From the NCBI GenBank assembly GCA_903839035.1, contig CAIMAQ010000024.1, positions 1-64,000 on the forward strand: a stretch of DNA of 64,000 bases. The letters run 5' to 3'. Both the position numbers and the translations under genes were made by a program. Position 1 is the stretch's first letter. Every line of letters starts with the position of its first letter. The notes under the pieces were generated by a model. That model had not been told where the DNA came from, did not search any database, and saw only the letters and a list, made by a program, of their open reading frames with translations. Shown here one piece after another: positions 24,310-47,477 of this stretch. The DNA is from an uncultured Opitutia bacterium (GTDB taxonomy: Bacteria; Verrucomicrobiota; Verrucomicrobiia; Opitutales; Opitutaceae).

Positions 24310-24536
24310 GATGGCGAAGGTTGGAGAGAAGCGGGGGTTAACGCAAAGATTCCCGGCAAAGTCATGCAAGCAGCCAATTGTAAGAGGAAAGTAAGAAGCA
24401 GGGGCTTCCAACCGGGTGATTTTATCCGCGAATGCACGCGAACCTCAGTCGGCGAGTTGGTCATTCTGGGCTTCGCCCGGAATGACCATCCGGGTTCGTG
24501 CTGGTTCGCCACATTGCGCGGTAGAAAAATTACCCT

Positions 24537-26720: not shown

Positions 26721-27440
26721 TCAGTTTTCGCCCAGGTTGCGGCGGAGCATGGCCTGCACCGCGGCGAGATTGTGGATGGTGATCTTCTTGCCGGAAACGG
26801 AGATGAGGCGCTGGTCGCGCAGGCGTCCGAGGGTGCGGGACAATGTCTCGCTGCTCGTGCCGAGTTCGGCGGCGAGGACCCGCTTCGTGCCGGGCAGCTG
26901 GATGGCGCCGCCCCGTGCGGCGTGGCTGTGCTTCACCAGCCAGTTGAGCAGGCGGGTTTCCACGTCCTTGAGGGTGAGGTCGTCGAGCATGCCGACCAGC
27001 ACGCGGAGGTGCCCGCTCATCGACCCGAGCATGCGCAGCGCGAGGTCGGGCCGGTGGCCGATGAGATCGAGCAGCGGGGCCTTGGGAAGGATGAGCACGG
27101 TGCTTGGCTCGACGGCGCGGGCGTTGGCAGGATAGCCGGTGGGGGTGGCGAGCGCCGCCTCGGCGAACGACTCGCCGGAGCGGAAAACGTGGATGACCTG
27201 TTCCTTGCCGGCGGCGCTGACGCGGTGGACGTTGACCGCCCCGCTTTGCACCAGGTAGCAGCCGCGCGCCGGTTCGCCCTCGTGGAACAGGTAGTCGTCC
27301 TTGGCCAGCTTTTGCATGACGGTGAAGCCTGCGATGACGGCGAGGTCCTCGGCCGACAGCCCGGAGAACAGCTGGCAGCAGCGCAGCGTGCCAATGAGCC
27401 CGGTGAGCTTAACGTCGGCGGGGCGGGGGGACGCAGGCAT
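26721..27440 (-). CDS. Crp/Fnr-family regulator (DNR/NNR-like)
   Basis: 239 residues: a cyclic-nucleotide-binding-type beta barrel (~15-130; DYLFHEGEPARGCYLVQSGA), a dimer helix and a winged helix with the recognition helix in ELGTSSETLSRTLGRLRDQR. The E-x-x-S-R recognition pattern is that of FNR/DNR proteins binding TTGA-type half sites. No FNR-type N-terminal Fe-S cysteine cluster is seen, so an NO-sensing DNR/NNR role fits better than O2-sensing FNR (inference). It is divergent from ric across a perfect TTGAC-N4-GTCAA box. ATG 27440 is chosen from the domain start. Confidence 0.9.
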   Translation of the reverse strand: MPASPRPADVKLTGLIGTLRCCQLFSGLSAEDLAVIAGFTVMQKLAKDDYLFHEGEPARGCYLVQSGAVNVHRVSAAGKEQVIHVFRSGESFAEAALATPTGYPANARAVEPSTVLILPKAPLLDLIGHRPDLALRMLGSMSGHLRVLVGMLDDLTLKDVETRLLNWLVKHSHAARGGAIQLPGTKRVLAAELGTSSETLSRTLGRLRDQRLISVSGKKITIHNLAAVQAMLRRNLGEN

Positions 27441-27520
27441 GACCGGCAGAGTGATACGAGGCGGGTCGGGGAGTCCCGCCCAAAATTCCGGCGGCCGGCT
27501 TTCACCGGGGCGCGGGTTGC

Positions 27521-27534
27521 TTGACACAGGTCAA
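27521..27534. promoter_or_regulatory. Crp/Fnr-type box upstream of ric
   Basis: TTGACACAGGTCAA is a perfect TTGAC-N4-GTCAA palindrome, 47 bp before the ric ATG and 80 bp before the divergent regulator gene. The same sequence form recurs before ctaB, the oxidase operon, nirK and the ywiC-like gene. Confidence 0.8.
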
Positions 27535-27581
27535 GGCCCGACCCGCCGCGATCGGGTAAGGTAGTGGCGAACCCATTCATC

Positions 27582-28304
27582 ATGACCACTGCCACCGCCT
27601 CCGATTTAACTCCTGAAACCAAGCTCGGCGACATCGTCGCCGCCCGGCCCGCCCTGGCCCGCGTCTTCGAGCGCCTCGGCCTCGACTACTGCTGCGGGGG
27701 CCAGCAGACTCTCGCGGCGGCCTGCGGGCGAAAGAAACTCGATCCGTCGACCGTGACCGCGATGCTGGAAGCCGCGGCCGCGGCCATCGAGGCCGGGCCT
27801 GCCGAGGTGGATGCCGCGGGCCTGACGCTCACGCAGCTCACCGACCATATCGAGCAGACGCACCACACCTATCTGAAGGCGGAGCTGCCCCGGCTCGTCG
27901 AAATGGCCGGACGCGTCGCCGGCAAGCATGCCTGGCGCGACGCGCGGCTGCCGGAGGTCCACGAGTGCGTGGTGGCGCTGGCGGAGGAAATGCTCAGCCA
28001 CATGCAGAAGGAGGAGGAGATACTTTTCCCGTTGGTGCGGCAGATCGATGCCGGGACGCTGGGTGATTTTCATTGTGGCTCCATTGCGAACCCCATCCGC
28101 CAGATGGAAGCCGAGCATGAATCCGCCGGCCGGGTGACGGCGCGGCTGCGGGAACTGACCGACGGATTCACGCCCACCCCGGAGTCGTGCAACACGCACC
28201 GGGCGCTGCTCGCGGGGCTAGCGGAGTTCGAGTCTGACCTGCACCGCCACGTGCACAAGGAGAACAACATCCTGTTTCCCCGCACGATTGCCCGCGCCGG
28301 CTGA
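27582..28304 (+). CDS. ric: Iron-sulfur cluster repair di-iron protein Ric (ScdA/YtfE family)
   Basis: 240 residues. The N-terminal ScdA domain has the motif LGLDYCCGGQQTL; the C-terminal hemerythrin-like domain supplies di-iron ligands in HIEQTHHTYL, EEMLSHMQKEEEILFPLV, MEAEHESAGR and HRHVHKENNILFPR. Ric repairs Fe-S clusters damaged by NO and peroxide. Its place beside a Crp/Fnr gene and downstream of an NO-type box supports induction by NO. ATG 27582 was chosen over a start 18 bp upstream by the family N-terminus. Confidence 0.95.
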   Translation: MTTATASDLTPETKLGDIVAARPALARVFERLGLDYCCGGQQTLAAACGRKKLDPSTVTAMLEAAAAAIEAGPAEVDAAGLTLTQLTDHIEQTHHTYLKAELPRLVEMAGRVAGKHAWRDARLPEVHECVVALAEEMLSHMQKEEEILFPLVRQIDAGTLGDFHCGSIANPIRQMEAEHESAGRVTARLRELTDGFTPTPESCNTHRALLAGLAEFESDLHRHVHKENNILFPRTIARAG

Positions 28305-28320: not shown

Positions 28321-29244
28321 TCAGATTGCGACGAGCCGGTCCACGGCGAGCGCGGCCAGCACCAGCGGAAGAAAGAAAATCGACGCGAGGAAAAGGCGGC
28401 GCGCCGCCGGATCGCGGTCCGGCGTTGCCGCCGCAAACTGCCAGGCGCACAGGAGGAAGGCGCCGCCGGCCAGCGCCACCGTCACGCCATAGATTGCGCC
28501 GAGGTATCCGAGCGCCCACGGCGCCAGCGAGACGGGCAGCAGCAGCGCCGAGTAGAGCAGGGACCAGCGCGCGGTTTGCCGCCCGGTGGCATCGACCGCG
28601 GGCAGCAGCCTGAAGCCAGCGTTGCGATAGTCGGCGCGGTGCCGCCAGCCGATCGCAAAGAAATGCGGCATCTGCCAAAACAACAGGAAGCCGGCGAGGG
28701 CGACGCCCGGCGCGGCCCACAGGTCGCCCGCGGCGGCGTTGCCCAGCAGTGGCGGCAGTGCCCCCGACACCGCGCCGAGTTCGGTCGCCCAGCGCGTGCG
28801 GCGTTTGAGCGGCGTATAGACAAGCCCGTAGGCTAGGATAGTGAGGGTGGCGACCGCAGCGGCTGGGAGGTTGACCCGCACCGCCAGCACGCCGACACCG
28901 GCGCCGGAAAGGGTGAGGCTCCAGGCAAGGGCGGCGCCTGGGTGCAAGCGCCCCTGAGGGAGCGGCCGGCTGCGGGTACGGCGCATCTGCGCGTCGGCGC
29001 GACGCTCCCACCATTGGTTGAGGGAAAGCGCGCCGGCGGCCGCCAGCGAGGTGCCGGCAAAGGTGACCAGCGCACCGGCGGCCCCGGCCGTGGGCCGCGC
29101 GGCGCCGTAGGCCACCATGGAGGTGATCACCGACATCAGGGCCAGCTGCGGCTTCGTCAGCGCGATCAGCGCGCCGACGGTCGCGAGCCAGGCCGGCCGG
29201 GACTGGGCGGCCCGCAGCGGCTGGGTGATGGGGAGGCTCGTCAC
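28321..29244 (-). CDS. ctaB: Heme O synthase (protoheme IX farnesyltransferase)
   Basis: A 307-residue polytopic UbiA-family prenyltransferase that farnesylates heme B. The two polyprenyl-binding Asp-rich motifs appear as NQWWERRADAQMRRTRSRPL (first, DxxxD type) and WRHRADYRNAGFRLLPAVD (second). YTPLKRRTRWATELGAVSGA is characteristic of CtaB/CyoE. The start is GTG 29244; the only longer in-frame option is blocked by a stop. It is divergent from the heme-copper oxidase operon and has its own TTGAC-N4-ATCAA box, so heme O (or A) is probably made for that enzyme. Confidence 0.92.
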   Translation of the reverse strand: MTSLPITQPLRAAQSRPAWLATVGALIALTKPQLALMSVITSMVAYGAARPTAGAAGALVTFAGTSLAAAGALSLNQWWERRADAQMRRTRSRPLPQGRLHPGAALAWSLTLSGAGVGVLAVRVNLPAAAVATLTILAYGLVYTPLKRRTRWATELGAVSGALPPLLGNAAAGDLWAAPGVALAGFLLFWQMPHFFAIGWRHRADYRNAGFRLLPAVDATGRQTARWSLLYSALLLPVSLAPWALGYLGAIYGVTVALAGGAFLLCAWQFAAATPDRDPAARRLFLASIFFLPLVLAALAVDRLVAI

Positions 29245-29377: not shown

Positions 29378-30817
29378 ATGCCTCCTCCCGCGGCGTCACT
29401 GCCCCGACATTCCGTGCTTGAAACATCGCGGCCGTGCGCCGGGTTGACGGACGCGGCGGTGGATGGCAACGCGCCGGCCCGGGGCTGGTTTTTGCTGGCG
29501 GTTGGCAGCCTGGTGCTGGCGGGTCTGCTCTCGCTGACGCTGGTCGTCGGCCGGCTGCCGTTCCTTGGCTGGCTGTTTACGGACCCGCTGTTTTTCAAGC
29601 GGGCGCTGGTCGTGCACGTGGACCTGGCGATCGTGGTGTGGTTTCAGGCCGGCACGCTTGCCTTCCTTGGGCTGGCGCTCGGCCCGCGGCTGCACCGCGG
29701 GGTGACGGCGGCCGCGCTGGCGCTGGCGGCCATGGGCGTCGCCGGGATGCTCACGGGTGCGTGCATGCCGGGCGCGCTGCCCGTCCTCTCCAACTATGTG
29801 CCGGTGATCGACCATCCGGTTTTCTTTGGTGGGCTGGTTTGCTGGTTTGCCGGCGCCGGGCTGTTTTTCAGCCTGGCGCTGGCAACGTCGGCCCGCACCG
29901 ATGCCAAGGCGCTGACGCCCGACGCTGTAGTCGCACTGCGCGCCTCGGCCGTGGCCAACCTGCTCGCACTGGCGACCTTTGCGGGGGCCAGCCTGACGAC
30001 GCCGGCCTCGGCGCCGGCGGTGCATTACGAACTGGTGTTCTGGGGTGGCGGCCACGTGCTGCAGGCGGCCAATGTGGCGGCGATGCTGGCGCTGTGGCTG
30101 CACCTGCTGCACCGCTGGACCGGCCGGGCCGTGCTGACGCCGGCCGCGGCCACTGCGCTGGTCGCGGCGCTCGTGCTGCCGCAGCTCGTGCTGCCGCCGC
30201 TGGCGTTCGCCGGCACGACGGCCACGAACTATTTTTCAATGGCGACGCACCTGATGCGTTGGACAATCTTCCCGGTGGTGACTGTCGTGCTGGCCGCGGC
30301 CGCGGCCCATGTGTGGCGGCACCGCGCGGGGTTGAGCTGGCGCGACTATCGCTTCGCCGGCCTCGCCGGCAGCGCGACGCTGACGGTACTGGGCTTCATC
30401 CTCGGGTCGCTGATCCGGAGTTCGAGCACGCTGGTGCCGGGCCATTACCACTGCGCCATCGGCGCCGTGACGATCGCGTTGATGACGGCAGCGTATGAAT
30501 TCTCCGGGACGGTCGCGCCGGTGGCGGCCCCGGCTCCGGCCCCGCGCCACGCGCGCCTCCAGCTGCTGCTCTTCGGCGGCGGGCAGGCGGTCTTTGGCCT
30601 CGGGTTCGCGCTGGCCGGCGCCTATGGCCTCGGCCGCAAGCAATACGGCAGCGAGCAGCACGTGCGCTCTCTCGGCGAATATCTCGGGCTCAGCGTCATG
30701 GGCCTCGGCGGTCTGGTCGCCGTGGCCAGCGGGATCCTTTTTCTGGCGGTGATACTGCGCGGTCTGGGCGCGTGGCGCCGCCGGCCCATTCCAGTTGCCT
30801 CATTCCAACATGAATAA
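29378..30817 (+). CDS. Heme-copper oxidase subunit I homologue lacking CuB ligands
   Basis: A 479-residue membrane protein with about 12 hydrophobic segments. It aligns by eye with the oxidase subunit at 31537: H80 in ALVVHVDLAIVVWF (helix II), H226 in FWGGGHVLQAANVAAM (helix VI) and H356/H358 in LVPGHYHCAIGAVTIALM (helix X) are kept. The His-His pair of helix VII is absent; the region reads FSMATHLMRW. Two hemes could still bind, but CuB should not, so it is more likely an electron-transfer or structural subunit than a reductase. It is the first gene of the operon and overlaps the next small gene by 8 bp. Confidence 0.82.
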   Translation: MPPPAASLPRHSVLETSRPCAGLTDAAVDGNAPARGWFLLAVGSLVLAGLLSLTLVVGRLPFLGWLFTDPLFFKRALVVHVDLAIVVWFQAGTLAFLGLALGPRLHRGVTAAALALAAMGVAGMLTGACMPGALPVLSNYVPVIDHPVFFGGLVCWFAGAGLFFSLALATSARTDAKALTPDAVVALRASAVANLLALATFAGASLTTPASAPAVHYELVFWGGGHVLQAANVAAMLALWLHLLHRWTGRAVLTPAAATALVAALVLPQLVLPPLAFAGTTATNYFSMATHLMRWTIFPVVTVVLAAAAAHVWRHRAGLSWRDYRFAGLAGSATLTVLGFILGSLIRSSSTLVPGHYHCAIGAVTIALMTAAYEFSGTVAPVAAPAPAPRHARLQLLLFGGGQAVFGLGFALAGAYGLGRKQYGSEQHVRSLGEYLGLSVMGLGGLVAVASGILFLAVILRGLGAWRRRPIPVASFQHE

Positions 30818-30959
30818 CGAATCCAAGAAACACCCGTGGCAGAAGGTGCTCGATAACCCCTGGCTGCTCCTCGTCCTCGGCGTCCTCATCCCGGTCCTCT
30901 CCTACACGGTGTGGGGCTGGATTGAGCTGCTGCTCACCAAACCCGCCCTGCTGCCCTGA
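30810..30959 (+). CDS. Small single-span membrane subunit
   Basis: A 49-residue protein (MNNESKKHPWQKVLDNPW, then one hydrophobic helix LLLVLGVLIPVLSYTVWGWIE). The gene starts inside the last codons of the preceding subunit and ends 13 bp before the CuA gene, so it is part of the operon. It resembles the tiny accessory subunits of heme-copper oxidases in size and topology; there is no sequence family I can name. Confidence 0.75.
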   Translation: MNNESKKHPWQKVLDNPWLLLVLGVLIPVLSYTVWGWIELLLTKPALLP

Positions 30960-30972
30960 CCCCCATTGACCC

Positions 30973-31524
30973 ATGAGCCTGCGTCCCCTCACCACCCCTT
31001 GGTTCCACGGCCCGGCCGGCCACGAAAAAATCTGGCTCGGTTGCGCCATCCTCTGGTGCTTCGTGATGTCGCTGATGATGCCGTACTGGCATTTCCGCGG
31101 CAAACAGAACAGCACCGGCGAGGCCTACACGGTCAAGCCCGCCGATTTTTTCGCCCGCACGGAAAAATTTGTCGCGTCCAACCGGGTCGGCACCTTCAAG
31201 AATCCGATCGCGAACGCGCTGATGACGGAGCTGCCGATCGTCGAGCCCCCGGCCGGCGGCGACGCCTACCTGATGGGCCGCATGTGGCAGTGGTATCCCG
31301 CGCTGCGGCTGCGCAAGGGCGAGACCTACCGGCTGCACCTCTCGTCGCTCGACCTGCAGCACGGTTTCTCGCTGCAGCCCCTGAACATGAACTTCCAGGT
31401 GCTGCCCGGCTACGACCACGTGTTGACCATCACGCCGACTTCCACCGGCGAGTTCACCATCGTCTGCAACGAGTTTTGTGGCGCCGGCCACCACGCCATG
31501 ACCGGCAAGATCTTCGTCGAATAA
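30973..31524 (+). CDS. Cytochrome oxidase / NO reductase subunit II with CuA site
   Basis: 183 residues: one N-terminal membrane helix (IWLGCAILWCFVMSLMMPYW) and a cupredoxin domain. All CuA ligands are present: H130 (DLQHGFSLQP), C165, C169, H173 and M176 in CNEFCGAGHHAM. It should accept electrons from a soluble carrier and pass them to the catalytic subunit encoded 12 bp downstream. It has one membrane helix, unlike the usual two of aa3 oxidases. Confidence 0.92.
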   Translation: MSLRPLTTPWFHGPAGHEKIWLGCAILWCFVMSLMMPYWHFRGKQNSTGEAYTVKPADFFARTEKFVASNRVGTFKNPIANALMTELPIVEPPAGGDAYLMGRMWQWYPALRLRKGETYRLHLSSLDLQHGFSLQPLNMNFQVLPGYDHVLTITPTSTGEFTIVCNEFCGAGHHAMTGKIFVE

Positions 31525-31536
31525 CCGCACCCCGCC

Positions 31537-33240
31537 ATGTCCAATCCCTCCCATTCCCTCTCCGCTCCCGGCGCTCCCGGGCGCGTGTGCGGCACCACCG
31601 GCCTGAGCGTCTGTTTCGCCGCCCAGCGCTTCATCAAGCTCAATGCCGTCAGCGGCATTGTCTTCCTGCTGCTCGGCGGCATTGCCGCGCTGTTGCTGGC
31701 GCTCACGCGCTGGCAGACGGTGCATCTCCTGCCGGTCGACTGGTTCTACCGCATCCTGACGTTCCACGGCATCAACATGCTGATCCTGTGGATCCTGTTC
31801 TTTGAGGTCGCGATCCTCTACTTCGCCTGCACGACCCCGCTGAACTGCCGGCTCTTCTCGCGCAAGATCGCCTGGGCCTCGTTCGGGATGATGCTCACCG
31901 GCGCCGTCATGGTGGACTACATCATCCTCGCCGGCCGGGCCGACGTGATGATGACGTCCTACCTGCCGCTGCTGGCGCACCCGCTCTTCTACCTCGGCAT
32001 TATCCTCGTGGCGGTGGGCACGCTGACCGGGGTGTTCAATTTCTTCGCCACGCTCTACGTGGCCAAGCGGGACGGCGCCTACACCGGCTCGATGCCGATC
32101 GTGACCTTCGGCGCGCTCGCCGCCGCCATCATCGCGGTCGTCACGCTGCTGCATGGCGCGGTGGTGATGATCCCGACCTTCACCTACTCGATGGGCTGGA
32201 CCGCCCAGCCCGATCCGGCGTGGTACCGGCTGATCTGGTGGGGCCTGGGTCACCAGTCGCAACAGGTCAATGTCTGCGCGATGGTCGCCGTCTGGTATTT
32301 GCTCTCACACATCACCGTCGGGGCCCGCCCGATCAACGAGGCCGTGTGCCGGACGGCGTTCGTGCTCTACATCCTGTTCATCAATCTCGCCTCGGCGCAT
32401 CACTTGCTGGTGGACCCGGGCGTCGGCGCCACCTGGAAGATCTGGAACACATCCTACGCCATGTACCTCGCGGTGCTCGCTTCGATGATCCACGGCTTCA
32501 CTGTGCCGGCGGGGGTCGAGCTCGCCATGCGCGAGAAAGGCTACACCAACGGCATCTTCGGCTGGGTCACGGCGCTGCCGTGGAGAAACCCGGCGTTCTC
32601 CGGCACCGCGCTATCGCTGGTAATCTTCGGTTTCCTCGGCGGCATCACCGGGGTCACCCTCGGCACGCAGCAGATCAACATCATCGCGCACAACACGCTG
32701 CGCATCCCCGGGCACTTTCACGTGACCGTCGTCGGCGGCACCACGCTGGCCTTCATGGCCCTCGCGTATTACGTGATCCCGCTGATTTTCCAGCGGGACT
32801 TCATTTTCCGCGGCGTGGCGCGGGTGCAGCCTTGGCTGTTCGGCATTGGCATCACCATGGTCGCGTTCGGCATGTCGTTCGCCGGCTCGATGGGGGTGCC
32901 TCGCCGCAGCTGGGACATTGACGCGCAGGGGGTCTACGGCCCCGCGGCGCACCTCTGGCTCGGCGTGCTGGGCATGGGCGGGATCCTCGCCTTCACCGGT
33001 CTGCTGATCTTTGCGCTGCTCTGCGTCGGCACGCTCTTCTTCGGTGCGAAGATCGAGGGCCGCGCGATGGCCGACTGGGGCACGCCGCCGGCGCTCGCCG
33101 GCAGCCAGCCGGGCTCGCTCGCCCACGACCACTACGCCACAAAGGGCACGATCGTCCTCACACTCGCCTTCCTCGCGTGCTTTGCGGTCTATTACTTCGC
33201 GAACTGGAAAGCGTTGGCCGACGTCTGGCCCGTGCGCTGA
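31537..33240 (+). CDS. Heme-copper oxidase catalytic subunit, probable NO reductase type
   Basis: A 567-residue 12-14-helix catalytic subunit. The six metal-binding His are seen: H77 (LTFHGINMLILWI), H239 (WWGLGHQSQQVNV), H288-H289 (LASAHHLLVDPG) and H393/H395 (IPGHFHVTVVGG). After the helix VI His the O2-reductase HPEVY motif is replaced by HQSQQ, so the cross-linked Tyr is missing. This feature is known from NO-reducing members of the superfamily (eNOR/bNOR/sNOR types). With nirK, ric and NO-type boxes nearby, NO reduction to N2O is the best guess; oxygen reduction by an unusual oxidase is not excluded. Confidence 0.85.
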   Translation: MSNPSHSLSAPGAPGRVCGTTGLSVCFAAQRFIKLNAVSGIVFLLLGGIAALLLALTRWQTVHLLPVDWFYRILTFHGINMLILWILFFEVAILYFACTTPLNCRLFSRKIAWASFGMMLTGAVMVDYIILAGRADVMMTSYLPLLAHPLFYLGIILVAVGTLTGVFNFFATLYVAKRDGAYTGSMPIVTFGALAAAIIAVVTLLHGAVVMIPTFTYSMGWTAQPDPAWYRLIWWGLGHQSQQVNVCAMVAVWYLLSHITVGARPINEAVCRTAFVLYILFINLASAHHLLVDPGVGATWKIWNTSYAMYLAVLASMIHGFTVPAGVELAMREKGYTNGIFGWVTALPWRNPAFSGTALSLVIFGFLGGITGVTLGTQQINIIAHNTLRIPGHFHVTVVGGTTLAFMALAYYVIPLIFQRDFIFRGVARVQPWLFGIGITMVAFGMSFAGSMGVPRRSWDIDAQGVYGPAAHLWLGVLGMGGILAFTGLLIFALLCVGTLFFGAKIEGRAMADWGTPPALAGSQPGSLAHDHYATKGTIVLTLAFLACFAVYYFANWKALADVWPVR

Positions 33241-33261: not shown

Positions 33262-34254
33262 ATGTCCCACTCGCTCAGCTTGGCCTCCCCCGCACCGCCG
33301 GCGCGGTCGGACTCCGCGGGGGAGCGCTTCCTGACCGGGCCCGGCCTGCTGGTGTTTCTGTTCACCGCACTTGCCGCGTACCAGGCCTTTCTGCTGGTTA
33401 CGATCTTCGGGCCGACGCAGGGCGGCCCGCTGGGCGACTTCGTGCGCGATTTCCAGCTCTGGTGTTACCGGGGCGACCCGCGCACCGGCGGGATTTCGTG
33501 GCTGGCGGTCTCGGTGATGATGCTTGAGCCGGTCTTCATCGTCGCCGTGGCGGCGCTGCTGTGGCGGGAGATTTTTGTGCAGTTGATCCACGTCCGCACC
33601 TGGCTGACGCATGCGCGGGCGGCGGGCGCGGGTCTGGGCGTGATCGCGGTTTGCGTCGCCGGGCTGGTGTCCTACGCCCGCGCCGATGCGGCCCGGGCGC
33701 AGGTGCTGCCGCCGTTTCCCGGTGAAAGCATCCGGCTCCGGCTCGACCTGCCCGCGGGACCGTTCGTGGATCAGAAAGGCGCCGTCTTCCGCTTTGCCGA
33801 CCTGCGCGGACGGGTGGTGCTCGTCACCGGGGTCTATGCGGCCTGCACCACCGCCTGCCCGGAGATTTTCCTCGAGGTGAAAAAGATTCTCGGGGAACTG
33901 CCCGCCGCCGACCGGGCCGGCCTGAGCGTGGTGGCGCTCTCGCTCAACCCGGAATACGAGACGTCGGAGCTGATGAACCTCGTGGCCGAGGGGCGCGGAC
34001 TGTCGCACCCGGAGTTCCGCTACGTCAACGGCCGGAACCCCGCCGCGATGCACGAGGTGCTGACGCGGATGCAGTTCTCCGCCACGCGTAACCCGCAGAC
34101 GGGCGTCGTTGACCACGCCAATTTGTTCCTGCTCGTCGACCGCTCCGGTCACATCGCCTACCGTCTTACGCTGGATCCGCGCCATCGCGCCTGGCTCCGC
34201 GCGGGCCTGCGCGCCCTGCTGCGCGAGCCTTATGCCGCCGGACCTGCATCCTGA
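33262..34254 (+). CDS. SCO1/SenC copper chaperone with N-terminal membrane domain
   Basis: 330 residues. The N-terminal ~145 residues contain three hydrophobic helices (LLVFLFTALAAYQAFLLVTI; WLAVSVMMLEPVFIVAVAAL; AGLGVIAVCVAGLVSYA). The C-terminal thioredoxin-fold SCO domain has the CxxxC copper site (VYAACTTACPEIF) and the distal His (DHANLFLLVD). It should load copper into the CuA subunit. The extra helices are unusual for SCO proteins, which normally have one. It overlaps the next gene by 23 bp. Confidence 0.88.
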   Translation: MSHSLSLASPAPPARSDSAGERFLTGPGLLVFLFTALAAYQAFLLVTIFGPTQGGPLGDFVRDFQLWCYRGDPRTGGISWLAVSVMMLEPVFIVAVAALLWREIFVQLIHVRTWLTHARAAGAGLGVIAVCVAGLVSYARADAARAQVLPPFPGESIRLRLDLPAGPFVDQKGAVFRFADLRGRVVLVTGVYAACTTACPEIFLEVKKILGELPAADRAGLSVVALSLNPEYETSELMNLVAEGRGLSHPEFRYVNGRNPAAMHEVLTRMQFSATRNPQTGVVDHANLFLLVDRSGHIAYRLTLDPRHRAWLRAGLRALLREPYAAGPAS

Positions 34255-36361
34255 CGTGGATTGCGAGGTGCTGGCCGAGTCGCTGGGGCCGTCTCCCAAC
34301 CCGCCCGGCAGCCAGCCGCCGCCGCCGCCCACCCGCGCCGCCCGGCTCCTGGCTGCGGGCGACGGGCTCGGCACGCGGCTGGACGCGCTGCTGGAGCGGT
34401 GGCTGCCGCGCGAGGTGAACCCGCTCGCCCAGCTCGGGCCCGCGGCCAACGCCATGCTGCTGCTGGCGACGCTGTCCGGTGTGCTGATGCTCCTGTGGTA
34501 TTCGGCGAGCGTGCAGTCGGCGTGGCGCTCGCTGGCCGACCTGGGCCCGCGCTCCCCTGGCGGGATCGTGCGCAGCGTGCACCGCTACTCGTCGGACCTG
34601 CTGATGCTGCTGGTGCTGGCGCATGCGCTGCGGACCTTTTTCGCGCGGAAGTTCGCGGATGCCCGCTGGCTGGCGTGGGTGAGCGGCATCGCGCTGCTCG
34701 GCCTGGTGTGGTTCATCGGCTGGACCGGCTATTGGCTGGTGTGGGATGTGCGCGCCCAGCTGCTCGCCCTCGACACGATGAAGGCGGTGGATGTGCTGCC
34801 CGTGTTTGGCGAGCCGATGCTGCGCCTGTTCGCCTCGGACCGCACGGTGCCGTCGCTCCTGTTCTTCGTGGTGTTCTTCCTGCACATGGTGCTGCCGCTG
34901 GGCATTGCCGGCGGGCTGTGCCTGCACCTGGCGCGGCTGAGCCGGTCGCAACTGCTGCCGGACTGGCGGCTGAGCGCGTGGCTGACCGGGGCCGTCGTGG
35001 CGGCGGCCCTGGCGTATCCCGCGGTCAACGCCACGATCGCGCAGATGGCGGTGAAACCCGGCCGGCTCACGATGGACTGGTGGTTCCTCTGGCCGCTGAT
35101 CATCACGGCGCGCCTGTCGGGTGGCGGCCTCTGGCTGGCGACCTTTCTCGCCGCGGCCGGCCTGCTGACCGTGCCGTGGTGGCTGGCCCGCCGCCGGCCG
35201 CGCGCCGTCTACCAGGCCACGATCAACATTTCGCGCTGCTTTGCCTGCACGCTCTGCTCACACGACTGCCCGTTCGGCGCGATCACGATGGTGCCGCGCA
35301 CCGATGGCCGGCCGTTTCCCTCGCAGGCGCAGATCGATCCCAACCGCTGCATCGGCTGCGGGGTGTGCGCTGGCGCGTGCGATACGCAAGGCATCGGCCT
35401 CGCCTGGTTCGACGCCCAGCAGGTCACGCGCGAGCTTGAAGCCTTTGTCCTTGCGGAGGTCGCCAAGGGTGCGCCGCCCGCGCTCGCGCTGGTCTGCGTG
35501 CAGTCGGACGGCGGCTGGGAGCTGTTTGCCGCCGGGGCATGGCAGACGCGGCTGCCGGGTTACGTCGTGCGGCCGATTCCGTGCGTGGGTTGGGTGGAGC
35601 CGAAGCTGGTGGAGCGCCTCGTCAGCAGGGGAGCGGCGGCGGTGCTGATCGTGGGCTGTGGCTCGAGCGAGGCGTTCTGCAAGGAGGGCAACCGCTGGCT
35701 GCCGGAGCGGCTGAGCGGCGCGCGGGAACCTGCGTTTCGTCCCAATCGCGCGGATCCGCGCCGGGTCGCACACGTGATTTTTGACCCGCTTCAGCCTGCG
35801 CTTCTGGCCGCGGCCACTGAAAATCTCCGGGCGCTGCAACCGGTGCCGGTGGCTCCCCGCCGGGGCTGGTTCGGGCAGTTGACCGCCGGGCTGCTCCTGA
35901 CCGCCATCGGCCTCGCCGCGCTCCTGCTGGCCAGCGATGCCCCCTTCCACAATCCCGCGCCACCGGAGGCGGAGTTCGTTTTCACGTTCCGGGCGTATGG
36001 TGAATGGATTTCCGGCGCGGTGGCGGCCCTGCCGGATCCGGCCCATGACACGCGCCCGGTGCACATGCGCACCGCGCAGCCGGCTCAACGCACCCGCTCG
36101 CCGGTCGTCGTGCAGGTTGTGGTGGATGGACGGGGGGAGGAGCGCGTTTTTCACCCCAAGGGCTTCAAGTCCGATGGCTTCTCGGTCGGCGAGGTGCGGG
36201 CGGTGCTCACGCCGGGCTTGCACCAGGTCTCGGTCAGCGTCGCCACGCACGCGGGGCCGAATGCCCCCCGTCAGACGTGGTCGGCCGGGATCAACGCCCG
36301 GCCCGGGCGGCTGACGGTGCTCACCCTCGAGGCCAACCGCGGGTTCCAGTTGGAGCCTTGA
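34232..36361 (+). CDS. Cytochrome b / di-cluster ferredoxin / MvhD-like fusion protein
   Basis: A 709-residue multidomain membrane protein. Residues ~65-320 form a cytochrome b domain with both bis-His heme pairs, H117/H131 and H218/H232, each 14 apart. Residues ~330-390 form a ferredoxin with two [4Fe-4S] motifs (CFACTLCSHDCP, CIGCGVCAGACD). Residues ~415-530 resemble the MvhD/HdrA-associated delta subunit (IPCVGWVEPKLVERL, LIVGCGSSEAFCKEGNRW), then a C-terminal helix (GLLLTAIGLAALLLA) and an extracytoplasmic beta domain. It probably feeds electrons from quinol or ferredoxin to the oxidase. I know of no described enzyme with this order. Confidence 0.85.
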   Translation: MPPDLHPDVDCEVLAESLGPSPNPPGSQPPPPPTRAARLLAAGDGLGTRLDALLERWLPREVNPLAQLGPAANAMLLLATLSGVLMLLWYSASVQSAWRSLADLGPRSPGGIVRSVHRYSSDLLMLLVLAHALRTFFARKFADARWLAWVSGIALLGLVWFIGWTGYWLVWDVRAQLLALDTMKAVDVLPVFGEPMLRLFASDRTVPSLLFFVVFFLHMVLPLGIAGGLCLHLARLSRSQLLPDWRLSAWLTGAVVAAALAYPAVNATIAQMAVKPGRLTMDWWFLWPLIITARLSGGGLWLATFLAAAGLLTVPWWLARRRPRAVYQATINISRCFACTLCSHDCPFGAITMVPRTDGRPFPSQAQIDPNRCIGCGVCAGACDTQGIGLAWFDAQQVTRELEAFVLAEVAKGAPPALALVCVQSDGGWELFAAGAWQTRLPGYVVRPIPCVGWVEPKLVERLVSRGAAAVLIVGCGSSEAFCKEGNRWLPERLSGAREPAFRPNRADPRRVAHVIFDPLQPALLAAATENLRALQPVPVAPRRGWFGQLTAGLLLTAIGLAALLLASDAPFHNPAPPEAEFVFTFRAYGEWISGAVAALPDPAHDTRPVHMRTAQPAQRTRSPVVVQVVVDGRGEERVFHPKGFKSDGFSVGEVRAVLTPGLHQVSVSVATHAGPNAPRQTWSAGINARPGRLTVLTLEANRGFQLEP

Positions 36362-37988: not shown

Positions 37989-39188
37989 TTAGTAGGCATA
38001 TTCAACTGAGGCCCAGAACTTCCGGACGTTGGGCTGGGCGAGACTGACACGGCGAAAGTCGGCAAACTTCACCAGGACGGTCACACTTTGCCCGAACTTG
38101 TGCGTCAGTTGGAGATCAAACTCATGTCCGAAATCAATGCGGCCGGCCGCGGAGTCGAACTGGTGGTAGAAGGCCACCAGCGGGCCGGCCCACGGGAGGT
38201 TGGCGGTGACCTTGGCGTAGGTGTCGCGGAGCCCGGCGGCGGGCGTGGTGAGAAACAGATCCGCCCAGCCGTTGAAGGCGTGGAGCGTGGCGAGCGGAGT
38301 CTTGAAGCCGACATTGTGATCCGAGCCCAGCACCTCGTACCCGAGCGTGAAACCGGCCGGTTTCCACCCAAGGCCGGCCTCGATCACGGTGTAGTGCGCG
38401 GAGTAGTTGAGCGTGCTGGCGGCGTAGTCGGACTGCGTGGCGGCCTCGAGGCGGTAGACGAAACTCAGGCCGGCCGAGAGGTGGGTGGTGCCGGCAAAGC
38501 TCGCGCCGTACGTGGCGCAGGAGTTGGCGGGCGCATTCGAAAAATCCAGCAGGTATGCATAACCGGTGAGTGTGCCGGCGGAAAAGCCGGCGTAGCTGGC
38601 GTTGAACAAATTGGAAGAGGACGCCCATTTGCCCTGGGGATGATCGGGGCCGAAGACGCGGTTGATCTGCTGGAGGTAGGCGTAGGTGAGCGTGGTTTTT
38701 CCCAGGGTCTTGTCCTGCAGGACGAAGGCGTCGAACGTCTGCATGTTCTGGCGCCAGCCGGAGTCTCCGATGAAGCGGGCGTTGTCGAGAACGAGCCGCT
38801 GGCGTCCGAGCGTGGCGGTGTCCGACGTGGTCTTGTAGACGAGCCAGGCCTGGTTGATCTCGGTCATCACGGGATCGGCGACGACGGCGTGGCCGGCCCC
38901 ACCGGAATTGATCCCGGCCTGGCTGTAACTGTCGCCGTTGGCGGCGGTGATGTTTTCCGCCTCGATCATGGCGGTCCAGCCCTGCCAGGGCGCGGTGATG
39001 AAGCCGAGCCGCGTGCGCAGCGTCAGGGCCTCGCCGTCCAGCAAGCCGGTCTGCTGCACCTCCTCGTAGCGGAGGCGTAAATTAAGCGAGACCTTGCTGC
39101 CCGCAACGGCATCGAACGGACTGGCGGCGTCGGCCGCGAAGCTCGGGCCGGCGGTGCAGATGAAGAGAAGGGTGATCCAAAATTTCAT
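37989..39188 (-). CDS. Outer-membrane porin-like protein
   Basis: 399 residues with a signal peptide (MKFWITLLFICTAGPSFA) and repeated amphipathic beta strands ending in aromatic residues (for example VSLNLRLRYEEV, FTLGYEVLGSD), closing with a C-terminal Tyr (VRKFWASVEYAY), the outer-membrane barrel signature. It resembles alginate-export or OprB-like barrels of 16-18 strands. Within the nirK operon it may admit nitrite or another small ion (inference). ATG 39188 is chosen by the signal peptide. Confidence 0.85.
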   Translation of the reverse strand: MKFWITLLFICTAGPSFAADAASPFDAVAGSKVSLNLRLRYEEVQQTGLLDGEALTLRTRLGFITAPWQGWTAMIEAENITAANGDSYSQAGINSGGAGHAVVADPVMTEINQAWLVYKTTSDTATLGRQRLVLDNARFIGDSGWRQNMQTFDAFVLQDKTLGKTTLTYAYLQQINRVFGPDHPQGKWASSSNLFNASYAGFSAGTLTGYAYLLDFSNAPANSCATYGASFAGTTHLSAGLSFVYRLEAATQSDYAASTLNYSAHYTVIEAGLGWKPAGFTLGYEVLGSDHNVGFKTPLATLHAFNGWADLFLTTPAAGLRDTYAKVTANLPWAGPLVAFYHQFDSAAGRIDFGHEFDLQLTHKFGQSVTVLVKFADFRRVSLAQPNVRKFWASVEYAY

Positions 39189-39211
39189 CGGAAATAAAGC
39201 GGTGGCCGCGA

Positions 39212-39844
39212 TTACCTGGCGGCCGCGGCGAGAGCGGCGGCCGCTTCGTCGAGTCCGCCCTTGAGCCCGATGCGCTGATGGACGATTTCGCCCTGCGGGT
39301 TCAGCAGGGTGAGGACATTGGAATGGGAAAACATGCCGTCGGCCTCCTGCTTGTATTTCACGCCGAGGAGCGCGGCGAGTTCGCGGACGGCATCGTCGGT
39401 GCCGTGGAGCAGGGTCCACTGGCCGTCGAGCGAGCGTTGCGCGCGATACTGGGCGAGGACGGCGGACGTGTCGTGGACGACATCAAAGGACACGAGCACG
39501 AAGGTGGTGCGTTCGCGGACGCCGGCGGGGAGTTGGGCGCGGAGGGCCTGCATGTCGGTGACCTGAAGCGGGCAGGCGTAGCCGCAGGAGGCGAAAAACA
39601 TCGTCAGCACCACGGGGCGGCCGCGGAGTTCGCCGAGGGTGAAGGCGTGGCCGGAGTCGTCGGTGAACCGGGCGTCGAGTTGATAGATTGATTCCTTGGA
39701 GAACGCGGCGCCCGTCTTGGCCGCGGGCGCCGTTGTCTCCTGGCAGTGCGGACAGGCCGCCGCGGCGGTGGGTTGGGCGGCCGCCCCCGCCCCGAGGGCG
39801 AAGGAGGCGGTGAGCAGGAATAAGGGGGCGAGTCTGGTGATCAT
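39212..39844 (-). CDS. SCO1/SenC family copper-insertion protein
   Basis: 210 residues: signal peptide (APLFLLTASFALGAGAAA), a CPHCQE segment, then a SCO domain with CxxxC (FFASCGYACPLQVTDM) and the copper-binding His in GMFSHSNVLTLLN. It is the third gene of the nirK operon, so copper delivery to NirK is likely. It is a separate type from the membrane-extended SCO protein at 33262. Confidence 0.92.
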   Translation of the reverse strand: MITRLAPLFLLTASFALGAGAAAQPTAAAACPHCQETTAPAAKTGAAFSKESIYQLDARFTDDSGHAFTLGELRGRPVVLTMFFASCGYACPLQVTDMQALRAQLPAGVRERTTFVLVSFDVVHDTSAVLAQYRAQRSLDGQWTLLHGTDDAVRELAALLGVKYKQEADGMFSHSNVLTLLNPQGEIVHQRIGLKGGLDEAAAALAAAAR

Positions 39845-39857
39845 GGCGGCAAAGGGT

Positions 39858-40703
39858 TTAAGGAGTGGGGTCCTTCGCGCAGCGGAAGCCGAGCGCGGTG
39901 GTGGTGTTGTTGGCCTTGAGGGAGGAGCGCAAAGCGAGGCGCATGAAGGCGGCGAAGTCGGTGGTGTCCTTGGCGCCGACGGAACCGGCGCCGCAGAACA
40001 GGTCGCGCTCGAGTCCGGAGTCGCCGCGGGATTCGCCGGTGACCATCGCGCTGTTGAAGTCGTCGACCCACTCCCATACCAGGCCGTGCAGATCATGGAC
40101 GCCGTAGAAATTCGGCCGGCCGCGGGCGACGGCGGGCTGGATGTCGGGCACCGGGCGCGCGAGCCAGGCATAGAGGTCGTGATTGAGCTGCTCGTCATTC
40201 CGGCCGTCGGGCCGGGTGTAGCCGGCGCCGGCGGCGAGTTCCCACTCGGCGGTGGACGGCAGGCGCTTGCTGACCCAGCGGGCGTAGGCCCGCGCCGCAA
40301 ACCACGAGACGCGGACGACCGGCGAGTTGAGCGGTGCCTGGACGCCGGGCTCACGGTCGCCGGCCCAGTTTTCCAGATAGGACGAATCGGCGAAAAGCCG
40401 GCTCACCATCGAGCGCTGCCAGTGGGGCTGTGCCGTGACGAAGGCGAGAAACTCGGCGTTGGTCACCGGCCGCTCGTCGAGCAGGTACGAAGCGACGTGG
40501 ACCTGGGCGGGATCCTTGGGCGTGCGCAGGAGCGGGACGTAGACGCCCGCGGGGATGCGCCTCATGGCCACCGGGGCCGGGTCGGCGGCGGGTCGCGCCG
40601 GGGACGGAGCTGTTGCCGTGGCACCCGCCGCCCCGCCGGCCAGCAGGCCGGCCAGGACGAGCCCGGTCGGCAGCAGCCGGCGGAGGCGGGAAAACGAGGT
40701 CAC
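39858..40703 (-). CDS. SUMF1/formylglycine-generating-enzyme-like periplasmic protein
   Basis: 281 residues: a signal peptide (LLPTGLVLAGLLAGGAAGA) and an FGE-sulfatase domain (RRIPAGVYVPLLRT; VTNAEFLAFVTAQPHWQRS; VSWFAARAYARWVSKRLPS; HDLHGLVWEWVDDF; ALGFRCAKD). Proteins of this type commonly accompany nirK and are thought to help copper-site assembly rather than act on sulfatases. The catalytic Cys pair of true FGE is not obvious. The start is GTG 40703, 13 bp after nirK; a later ATG would remove the signal. Confidence 0.88.
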   Translation of the reverse strand: MTSFSRLRRLLPTGLVLAGLLAGGAAGATATAPSPARPAADPAPVAMRRIPAGVYVPLLRTPKDPAQVHVASYLLDERPVTNAEFLAFVTAQPHWQRSMVSRLFADSSYLENWAGDREPGVQAPLNSPVVRVSWFAARAYARWVSKRLPSTAEWELAAGAGYTRPDGRNDEQLNHDLYAWLARPVPDIQPAVARGRPNFYGVHDLHGLVWEWVDDFNSAMVTGESRGDSGLERDLFCGAGSVGAKDTTDFAAFMRLALRSSLKANNTTTALGFRCAKDPTP

Positions 40704-40716
40704 GGTGAAGACCGGC

Positions 40717-42231
40717 TCAGTGGTTTTCGTTGCGGATGGCCTTCACCTGCGCGGTCGAGAGCGCGTCGCCCTTGTTGCCCCAGGAGTTGAGGACAAACGT
40801 GAGCACATCGGCGATCTGCGCGTCGGTCAGGACGGCTTCCTGGGGTGGCATGGCGCTGTTGAAGGTCTGGCCGTTGACGGTGACCGGGCCGGTGAGGCCC
40901 TTGAGAATGATGCGCACGGCGCGCTCGTGGTCGGCCTGCAGGAAATCGGAGAGCGCGAGCGGGGGAAACGCGCCCGGCAGGCCCTTGCCGTCCGGCTGGT
41001 GACAGGCGAAGCACAGGCCCATGTAGACCTGTTGGCCCTTCTCGATCTGCATTTCCTTGGTGAGGCCGGCGATGGTGGGGTTGGATTTGATCTCGGCGGC
41101 AATGCGGGTCTTCAGCGCGGCCTCGCGCTTGGCGGACTCGGAGCCGGCGTCGGCCTGGGCGCCGAGGTAGACGGCGTCGATTTCCTTGCCGGAGTAAACG
41201 ATGCGGTTTTCGGGGCCGGTGACCTTGAGCATGCCGAGCGCGCCCTTGTTGAACGCGCGGGTCAGCGAGTGATCGACGAGGATGAACGTGCCCGGGACAT
41301 CGACCTTGAACTCGACGGCGACGGCACCGCCCGAGGGGACGAGGGTGGTTTGCACGTTGCGGTTGGGCAGGCTGAGTCCGCCCTCGGGGTACACCGTGTC
41401 AAAGATCTCGCCGATGATGTGGAAAGACGAGGTGACGTTGGGTCCGCCCACGCCGAAGTAGATGCGGACCCGCTGGCCGACGCTGGCGGTGAGGGCCTTG
41501 TCGCCCACGAGCGAGCCGACGGCGCCGTTGAAGACGATATAGGGCGGGCGCTCGTCGATGGCCTTGCCCATGTCGAAGGACTGCAGGCCCTCCTCGCCGT
41601 ATTTGCCGGTGGTGTAGAACTCACCCTGCATGACGTAGTATTCTTGGTCGACGGGCGGGAGGCCGTCTTTGGGCTCGACGAGGATGAGCCCATACATGCC
41701 GCTACCGATGTGCATGGGTACGGGGGCGGTGGCGCAGTGGTAGACGAAGAGGCCGGGATTCAGTGCCTGGAAAGTGAACTGCGAGCTGTGGCCCGGGGCG
41801 GTGAACGTCGAGGCGGCGCCGCCACCCGGGCCGGTGACCGCGTGCAGGTCGATATTGTGGGGCAGCTTGGAGGACGGGTGGTTGTTGAGGTGGAACTCGA
41901 CGACATCACCCTCGCGGATGCGGATGAATGAGCCGGGCACGCTGCCGCCATAGGTCCAGAAGGTGTACTCGACGCCGTCGGCAAGCCGCTTGACGACCTC
42001 CCGCACCTCCAGGTTGACGATGACGCGGGCGGCGTACTTGCGCTTGAGCGGCGGCGGCACATTCGGGGCCGGGGTGAGAACGGCCTGCTCCACCGGCATA
42101 TCGAGAACGGTGACCGGGAGCGGCACGAGTCCCTTGGTTTGAGCCGTGCCTTCCTGGGCGGTGAGGGACGGATTCAAGAGGCCCAGCAAGGACAGTAACG
42201 CTGTGGCCGGGAATAGGCGGGAGGTTTTCAT
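40717..42231 (-). CDS. nirK: Copper-containing nitrite reductase with C-terminal cytochrome c domain
   Basis: A 504-residue periplasmic enzyme reducing nitrite to NO. After a signal peptide come two cupredoxin domains. Type-1 Cu ligands are H125, C166, H174 and M179 ([15 protein letters not shown]); type-2 Cu ligands are H130, H165 and H321. The catalytic Asp (D128 in HNIDLH) and His (H271 in SSFHIIG) are present. A fused c-type heme domain follows (CFACHQ, C407-H411, Met ligand near 461). The fusion should let small donors feed the type-1 site directly. It is the first gene of a six- to seven-gene operon under a TTGAC-N4-GTCAA box. Confidence 0.96.
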
Positions 42232-42284: not shown

Positions 42285-42298
42285 TTGACGCAGGTCAA
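42285..42298. promoter_or_regulatory. Crp/Fnr-type box upstream of nirK
   Basis: TTGACGCAGGTCAA is a perfect TTGAC-N4-GTCAA palindrome, 53 bp before the nirK ATG. It overlaps the stop codon of the upstream ywiC-like gene. Confidence 0.8.
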
Positions 42299-43104
42299 TT
42301 TATCGCGCCGTTCTGATTTAGCGACTGGTGATAGGCAAAAGTGAGAACCCCGAGAAGTACCCCACCAAGGACGGCCTCCAGGATACCCACGCGGCGGGCG
42401 GACCAGCCGGGGTGAAAAGCCGAGAGCAGCCACGCCGTTCGCAGCCAGAGCACGGTGCCCGCCGCCACGGCGAGCGGCGGGATCCAGCCCCGCAGGGCGA
42501 GGAGGGTCAATCCGGCCCATGCCACGCTCGCTGCGACCACGGCAGAAGTGGCGCTGAAGGGCTGATCCTTGCTCCGGCGCAAATACGATCGGACGGTGAG
42601 GACGGTGGGCACGCTGCGTGCGAGGGCGACGGCGGCCAGGGCCAGGGCGGCGGGAGCGGGCCAGCCGGCGAGGGTGGCTCCGGCGGCGGGCAACAGTGCG
42701 AACGCGGCGCTGCCGGCGAGTTCTGCCTCGGTTTCACGCATGGCGTTGCGGAGGTCGAACCAAAGGAAGAGCCCGCCCAGGGGCGCGGCCAGCAGCAAGG
42801 GCCAGAGCAAGCGGATTGACCCGAGGAAGGCCGTGGCGGTCAGGGCCCCGATGGCGAGTAGCGCGACAACCACCGCGACGGTGCGGGCAGGCATTCGGCG
42901 CGGATCCGACGAAGGGAGGGTCAGGGCAAGTTTGAGCGGCCGGCGGGTGAAAAAACCGGCGCCGGCGGCCAGCGCGAGCGCGATTCCAGCTGCTGACGGG
43001 GCGACCAGGAGAAACAACCCGACGGGCTCAAACGCGAGCGACCAACTGCCATGTTCCTTGGGCAGGATGAGGGCGCGGAAGCTGGAGACGCGGGTCGCGG
43101 TCAT
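42295..43104 (-). CDS. YwiC-like family membrane protein
   Basis: A 269-residue membrane protein with about eight hydrophobic helices. The N-terminal PKEHGSWSLAFEPVGLFLL is the YwiC signature (PKEHGAWAM type). Function is unknown; in Bacillus ywiC lies near fnr and narK, and many homologues lie beside nitrogen-oxide genes. It has its own Crp/Fnr-type box 35 bp upstream and precedes nirK by 63 bp. Confidence 0.88.
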   Translation of the reverse strand: MTATRVSSFRALILPKEHGSWSLAFEPVGLFLLVAPSAAGIALALAAGAGFFTRRPLKLALTLPSSDPRRMPARTVAVVVALLAIGALTATAFLGSIRLLWPLLLAAPLGGLFLWFDLRNAMRETEAELAGSAAFALLPAAGATLAGWPAPAALALAAVALARSVPTVLTVRSYLRRSKDQPFSATSAVVAASVAWAGLTLLALRGWIPPLAVAAGTVLWLRTAWLLSAFHPGWSARRVGILEAVLGGVLLGVLTFAYHQSLNQNGAIN

Positions 43105-43139: not shown

Positions 43140-43153
43140 TTGATGCAGGTCAA
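43140..43153. promoter_or_regulatory. Crp/Fnr-type box upstream of the ywiC-like gene
   Basis: TTGATGCAGGTCAA, one mismatch from the TTGAC-N4-GTCAA form, lies 35 bp before the ywiC-like ATG. Confidence 0.7.
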
Positions 43154-46667: not shown

Positions 46668-47477
46668 CTACAACAACCCGTGAGACTTCGCCCAGCGGAC
46701 GAACTCCGACTCGAGGCGGTCAAACGAGTCCACGACCCAGAGCACGTCCTGGAAATGCCAGATGTCGTAGGGCTGGAGCGCGGTTTTTTCCGGGACGAAG
46801 GGGCGTTGCTCGACGCGGTCGGTGAGCGAGTGGAGGGTTTCGCCCGCGCTGGAGATGATGCCGTTGCCGTAGATGCGCAGGCCGCCGGGATTCCGCACGA
46901 GGCCGAACTCCACGGTGAACCAGTAGAGGCGCGTGAGCTGCTCCTCGAGCGCCGGGTCCCGGCACGCGAGCGCGGCCTGGCCGATCCGCTGGTAGAAATC
47001 GGCGAAGCGCGGGTGCATGATCATCGGCGTGTGGCCGAAGATGTCATGGAAACAGTCCGGCGCGGGCGTGTAGTCGAGCTCGTGGCGGCCGCGGATGTAG
47101 TCGGTGCACGGAAAAATCCGCCGCGCAAGGTACCCGAAGAAATCGTGGGCATCGAGCAGGCCGGGCGTGCGCGCGATCTGCCAGCCCGTGGCGTGGTGCA
47201 GCTGCCGGGACACCGCCGCGAGCGAGGGGATCTTTTCGCGGTCGAGGTCGAGGGCGGTCAGGCCGGTGAGGAATTCATCCGCTGCGCGGCCGGGCAGCAG
47301 CTCCGCCATCCGCGCGTAAAGGGTGCGCCAGACGTCGTGCTCCTCCGGGGAGTAGCGGGGATAGACACAGGCTTCGCCGACCGGCAGCGGTTGCGTCAGC
47401 TTGTGGGGAATACAGCGGGGATCATGGCCATCCGGCGGGGGGATCGCCGGGGGCGCCGCGGTGGGGGTGGAAGGCAT
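46668..47477 (-). CDS. phhA: Phenylalanine 4-monooxygenase
   Basis: A 269-residue tetrahydropterin-dependent enzyme converting phenylalanine to tyrosine. Non-heme Fe ligands H144, H149 (PDCFHDIFGHTP) and E190 (LYWFTVEFGL) are present, as are the pterin/substrate loops (LLDAHDFFGYLARRIFPCTD). It is the short bacterial form without a regulatory domain. It opens a Phe/Tyr catabolic region with HPPD and HmgA further downstream on the other strand. Confidence 0.95.
   Translation of the reverse strand: MPSTPTAAPPAIPPPDGHDPRCIPHKLTQPLPVGEACVYPRYSPEEHDVWRTLYARMAELLPGRAADEFLTGLTALDLDREKIPSLAAVSRQLHHATGWQIARTPGLLDAHDFFGYLARRIFPCTDYIRGRHELDYTPAPDCFHDIFGHTPMIMHPRFADFYQRIGQAALACRDPALEEQLTRLYWFTVEFGLVRNPGGLRIYGNGIISSAGETLHSLTDRVEQRPFVPEKTALQPYDIWHFQDVLWVVDSFDRLESEFVRWAKSHGLL

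Follow-up and report, generated by a model that had tools for sequence, protein, structure and literature searches.

A cytochrome b-ferredoxin-FlpD membrane protein encoded beside the NO reductase eNOR in Verrucomicrobiota

eNOR belongs to the NO-reductase families that are overlooked in standard surveys. This family of heme-copper NO reductases was reportedly described by Hemp and Gennis in 2008 and by Murali et al. in 2024. Its hallmark is a Gln at the position of the active-site Tyr of oxygen reductases (PMC8756737). A verrucomicrobial isolate that has eNOR makes N2O from nitrite (PMC13274419). In RME88945.1, an entry in Table A3 of PMC8756737, a single ORF combines a cytochrome b6, an Fe-S, an FlpD, and a heme-c domain. 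The cupric reductase CcoG combines two [4Fe-4S] clusters with an Ig-like C-terminal domain in the periplasm, and its gene is found immediately after those of heme-copper oxidases (PMC7558416).

The window (the whole stretch of DNA analysed, 64,000 nucleotides from an uncultured Opitutia bacterium) contains an operon with genes for a second heme-copper subunit-I-like protein (HCO2), a small protein of 49 aa, subunit II, subunit I, an SCO protein, and a multidomain membrane protein denoted here as P0001 (Table 1). This gene order is conserved. Like the eNOR family, the locus has Gln for Tyr in subunit I, three CuB His, a cupredoxin subunit II, and nirK. H(Q/M/N)SQQ (H-x3-Q) is found in every subunit I homologue that spans the site. 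In the subunit I alignment (A2), H77, H239, H288, H289, and H393 are invariant and H395 is nearly invariant; these are the CuB and heme His. Subunit II is encoded upstream of subunit I, and its CuA motif is kept in 47 of 48, the remaining one being a fragment. The original prediction placed P0001 after an NO-reductase-like oxidase, and the neighbouring HQSQQ oxidase has the sequence traits of eNOR, a known family.

Table 1. Features of the eNOR operon, its surrounding island, and the domains of P0001
Feature	Position	Strand	Remarks
Crp/Fnr-family regulator	26721..27527	-	
FNR/NNR-type box TTGACACAGGTCAA	27521..27534		between regulator and RIC
RIC/YtfE/ScdA iron-sulfur cluster repair di-iron protein	27564..28304	+	
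Heme O synthase (CyoE/CtaB)	28321..29244	-	divergent from eNOR operon
FNR/NNR-type box TTGACTGGAATCAA	29284..29297		eNOR operon promoter
FNR/NNR-type box TTGACCTGGGTCAA	29330..29343		~49 nt before the first start codon of the operon; same place in most relatives
Second heme-copper subunit-I-like protein	29378..30817	+	CuB HH pair lost; His80, 226, 356, 358 kept
49-aa single-TM protein (DNPWLLLVLGVLIPVLSYTVWGWIEL)	30810..30959	+	conserved within operon
eNOR subunit II, cupredoxin with CuA motif CNEFCGAGHHAM	30973..31524	+	
eNOR subunit I (heme-copper)	31537..33240	+	HQSQQ with Gln at Tyr position, HH, HFH
SCO1/SenC copper chaperone with N-terminal TMs	33262..34254	+	
P0001, cytochrome b - 2[4Fe-4S] ferredoxin - degenerate FlpD/MvhD - TM - periplasmic beta-domain protein	34232..36361	+	709 aa
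P0001 cytochrome b/b6 domain	34400..34942	+	His117, 131, 218, 232
P0001 di-[4Fe-4S] ferredoxin domain	35216..35404	+	eight Cys, 36/36 homologues
P0001 FlpD/MvhD-like domain	35465..35836	+	cluster cysteines kept in part only
P0001 TM helix and C-terminal periplasmic beta domain	35867..36358	+	
Second SCO1/SenC-family protein	39212..40354	-	adjoins nirK
NirK copper nitrite reductase with C-terminal cytochrome c domain	40717..42231	-	
FNR/NNR-type box	42285..42298		before nirK
YwiC-like protein	42295..43104	-	adjoins nirK
FNR/NNR-type box	43140..43153		before ywiC

The SCO1/SenC gene runs 23 nt into the P0001 gene, and the CxxxC of its product is kept in 61 of 61 homologues. In at least 41 loci the subunit-I-like gene comes first in the operon, and the CuB HH pair is gone from its product in all homologues aligned. 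Such a pairing of a catalytic with a non-catalytic subunit I looks unusual. Since small ORFs resembling the 49-aa protein adjoin eNOR in Defluviimonas, Thermomicrobium, and Thermus, this one-TM protein seems to be a core eNOR subunit that went unnoticed. The divergences of five operon genes correlate with each other (r 0.89-0.97). The rate of evolution of P0001 is roughly double that of subunit I and similar to that of SCO.

The domain assignment first made for P0001 from its sequence is borne out by Pfam, where all calls were taken above the gathering cut-offs. The cytochrome b/b6 match (Cytochrome_B, PF00033) covers residues 57-237 with 76.8 bits. The ferredoxin part scores 35.3 (Fer4) and 34.4 (Fer4_7), and both complete motifs are present (CFACTLCSHDC at 336 and CIGCGVCAGAC at 373). 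The MvhD profile match, which had been named as a test, is found at residues 445-499 (FlpD, PF02662; 27.1 bits, with the cut-off at 22.3). C451, C476, and C483 are there as predicted, together with C422. In NCBIfam, residues 327-495 correspond to the C-terminal Fer4-plus-MvhD half of HdrA2 (E 3e-20). In the AlphaFold2 model (mean pLDDT 84.6, pTM 0.82), a cytochrome b helix bundle is followed by a part with Fe-S and FlpD domains, a helix spanning residues 546-568, and a beta domain at the C terminus. The additional helix and extracytoplasmic domain that had been predicted thus appear in the model.

The four heme His of the cytochrome b domain are all present, and only their pairing differs from the one first given (117 with 131 and 218 with 232). 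Their spacing is that of cytochrome b, in which axial pairs run between helices, so the likely pairs are 117 with 218 on the P side and 131 with 232 on the N side. We infer this topology and the heme positions from knowledge of the family. The best PDB sequence relatives of this part are cytochrome b6 and the cytochrome b of bc1, and the model has the same fold. Its match to cytochrome b chains extends over about 300 columns and takes in the E/F helix region. Unlike these proteins, P0001 carries ferredoxin, FlpD, and periplasmic domains, and its PEWY and LPW motifs are altered. Two helices follow the cytochrome b domain, with DWWFL (residues 282-286) in place of PEWY; in the family the motif reads DWWF or DAWY. 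The partners of cytochrome b in bc complexes (Rieske, cytochrome c1/f) are not found in the operon. P0001 is the sole cytochrome b in a genome-wide search, hence no bc1 complex is found. NrfD-type (ACIII-like) proteins are present in the genome.

These observations bear on whether P0001 handles quinol. The cytochrome b part could oxidise menaquinol near the periplasmic face and feed eNOR, with the ferredoxin part tuning or regulating this activity. The extent of the fold match, the invariant Asp282 at the PEWY position, the conserved segment GWTGYWL.WD, and the missing bc1 are in line with such a subunit. However, both quinol-site motifs (LPW and PEWY) are altered, and the invariance of eight ferredoxin cysteines would be left unexplained. 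We regard this role as unlikely. More doubtful by far is a quinol-bifurcating NO reductase without Rieske, in which P0001 and eNOR would split menaquinol electrons between CuA/NO and the cytosolic 4Fe-4S. If it were true, NO respiration would yield reduced ferredoxin, the second electron being driven through the hemes b.

The four heme His and the eight ferredoxin Cys are invariant in 36 of 36 homologues, down to 36% identity, which indicates that the architecture of P0001 is not due to chance. The FlpD/MvhD domain has a different fate. C451 and C476 are each kept in 22 of the 36 homologues and C483 in only 8, and in all 36 the first MvhD motif (NWC) lacks its second Cys. According to the tree, two or more lineages have lost MvhD cysteines and yet retain an intact operon. 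A profile of the P0001 family matches MvhD chains (E 3e-12). As in MvhD and the C-terminal half of HdrA2, the FlpD domain follows a Fer4 dicluster. Unlike HdrA2/MvhD, P0001 lacks an FAD domain and an HdrA partner. No other FlpD is found in the genome, and P0001 is the only match to the HdrA search.

The original prediction gave much weight to the MvhD-like domain, which these results do not support. A flavin-based electron bifurcation of the MvhD/HdrA type, linked to the membrane, would agree with the FlpD profile match and the Fer4-FlpD order. It is nevertheless the least probable of the roles considered, close to negligible, and is unsupported because the MvhD cysteines are not conserved, the genome has no HdrA, and P0001 has no flavin domain. 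For the same reasons a mechanism centred on MvhD was rejected. Given the losses of cysteines and a genome without other FlpD or HdrA, the domain is best read as a relic or a docking domain. P0001 itself keeps four Cys here, and by sequence its FlpD domain could bind a cluster.

The C-terminal domain is less easily placed. It has no Pfam match (FixG_C included, E up to 10), and when isolated it has no significant relative in the fold search. A copper site in this domain was considered and rejected: the His of its VHMR (His611) is kept in 34 of 36 homologues and is Asn in the Defluviimonas protein, only M612 is invariant, and a second ligand is not conserved. With no invariant His or Cys, the domain has no obvious redox centre.

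These features matter for the comparison with CcoG. Like CcoG, P0001 is membrane-bound, contains two [4Fe-4S] clusters together with a beta domain on the periplasmic side, and is encoded after heme-copper oxidase genes (PMC7558416). Unlike CcoG, it has a full cytochrome b domain, and its C-terminal domain has no detectable relationship to FixG_C. P0001 could be an assembly factor of the CcoG kind. Cytosolic electrons, led through its Fe-S clusters and hemes b into the periplasm, would reduce Cu(II) or the SCO disulfide there and so allow CuA and CuB of eNOR to be built. The position of its gene directly after the SCO gene, often overlapping, the SCO-like divergence at twice that of subunit I, and the eNOR loci without P0001 (see below) agree with this role. 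Against it stand the cytochrome b domain and the C-terminal domain, which shows no Pfam match, significant fold match, or conserved copper ligands. Moreover, periplasmic thiols could already be provided by a DsbD-like protein, a thiol-disulfide transporter encoded upstream of the island (22156-24411, minus strand). Copper-site assembly is on balance unlikely, and it is still a serious rival to electron transfer.

Relatives of P0001 were collected from 67 loci, mostly of Verrucomicrobiota, with some of Myxococcota and one assigned to Pseudomonadota. The loci were gathered by similarity to P0001, so that remote relatives with a different gene context could have escaped detection. Where enough upstream sequence is available, eNOR subunit I precedes the P0001 homologue in 55 of 57 loci. 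The two exceptions are an intact orphan (L040:9947-12064) and a truncated one (L052), and subunit I is not found elsewhere in either draft genome. The intact orphan reflects either loss in assembly or a separate use of the P0001 homologue. Another candidate for a locus without eNOR (L061) was rejected, as the assembly has a gap of Ns there and the C-terminal end of subunit I is present. Among 289 Verrucomicrobiota genomes sampled, the same six carry P0001 homologues and eNOR subunit I, and the two are always adjacent. Simple counting gives a chance of about 1e-12 for this coincidence, which is too optimistic because three of the six belong to one genus. It had been asked whether the fusion always sits beside HQSQQ-type oxidase genes, and with these few exceptions it does.

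On a Defluviimonas plasmid, a P0001 homologue of 32% identity also lies beside eNOR. Its C-terminal domain is a separate adjacent gene (hhalign probability 98.7), and this domain boundary is also where the frame is interrupted in G275, a complete Opitutaceae genome. It is possible that P0001 adjoins eNOR by descent only, serving another pathway and sharing a regulon. The two orphan copies in drafts without subunit I could be explained in this way, but the 55/57 adjacency, the identical carriers among the 289 genomes, and the adjacency that holds even in Defluviimonas make it very improbable.

The association is one-sided. Loci of Thermus, Thermomicrobium, and the haloarchaeon Natrinema have relatives of subunit I and no P0001. 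The eNOR Gln is confirmed by alignment in the Thermus and Thermomicrobium oxidases, and the Natrinema oxidase is a relative of subunit I. Unlike these loci, the operon described here adds P0001 and the CuB-less second subunit-I-like protein. P0001 is therefore a lineage-specific accessory, tied to eNOR and not vice versa.

The operon lies in an island that also contains nirK, the RIC gene, and a Crp/Fnr-family regulator. The pattern TTGAYNNNNRTCAA occurs in five exact copies in the window, where 0.07 would be expected, and all are at promoters of island genes. In relatives, an FNR/NNR-type box is found within 400 bases upstream of the operon in 35 of 39 loci (about 0.02 expected), mostly 49-63 nt before the first gene. 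These conserved boxes fit an anaerobic or NO-responsive regulon shared with nirK and RIC. A YwiC-like gene is also found near eNOR on a Thermus plasmid (L071:11103-12200), and the gene neighbourhood suggests a link of YwiC with NO metabolism. A porin-like gene (37989-39419) is located near nirK and the second SCO gene. Further along the window there is a biopterin-dependent aromatic amino acid hydroxylase of the phenylalanine hydroxylase type (46668-47477, minus strand).

Taken together, P0001 probably moves electrons across the membrane for eNOR or helps to build it. We tentatively prefer the first, that is, P0001 as a dedicated accessory subunit of the nirK-eNOR denitrification system and a transmembrane electron conduit. 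The two [4Fe-4S] clusters would receive electrons from a cytosolic reductant and deliver them to the heme b on the N side (His131/232), which would pass them on to the heme b on the P side (His117/218). At the periplasmic face they would be handed over to CuA of subunit II, or to quinone beside subunit II, and eNOR would use them to reduce NO to N2O. The FlpD domain would be a leftover of an HdrA/MvhD-like ancestor that now serves for docking or as a spacer.

The electron wire is suggested by invariant Fe-S clusters predicted to be cytosolic, two transmembrane hemes, and a CuA partner in the periplasm. CuA needs a periplasmic donor, and its motif is kept in subunit II. The AlphaFold2 model places the helices, the Fe-S part, and the periplasmic domain as the cytochrome b predicts. 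Gene order, adjacency to eNOR, the identical six carriers, and the correlated divergences also argue for an electron conduit, as does the status of P0001 as the only cytochrome b in a genome where no bc1 was found. The FNR-type boxes are consistent with a regulon common to nirK and RIC. RME88945.1 resembles P0001 in having cytochrome b6, Fe-S, and FlpD in one ORF. According to the published domain table, and unlike P0001, it also carries a C1 heme-c domain, as would be expected if electrons exit on the periplasmic side. Several points argue against the conduit. The eNOR loci of Thermus, Thermomicrobium, and Natrinema indicate that P0001 is not needed for eNOR catalysis itself, and the C-terminal domain shows no obvious redox centre. 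Electron flow from cytosol to periplasm would dissipate membrane potential. The intact orphan in a draft genome without subunit I also counts against it.

P0001 had been put forward as part of an undescribed respiratory module. Part of this stands: the oxidase belongs to a described family, and only the accessory subunit appears to be undescribed. No description of a cytochrome b-ferredoxin-FlpD partner of eNOR was found in the literature searched, outside which Murali et al. 2024 falls. For the combination of MvhD/FlpD, cytochrome b, and NO reductase, the only hit in the papers searched was RME88945.1, the entry in the domain table.

The supply of electrons and copper to eNOR is not settled in the literature searched, and P0001 offers a concrete gene and protein for it. 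This partner is conserved with eNOR across Verrucomicrobiota and Myxococcota, with one example in Pseudomonadota, and it marks an eNOR lineage that has a second, CuB-less subunit-I-like protein. NosZ is not found in the genome. The presence of NirK and eNOR without NosZ points to N2O as an end product of these bacteria.
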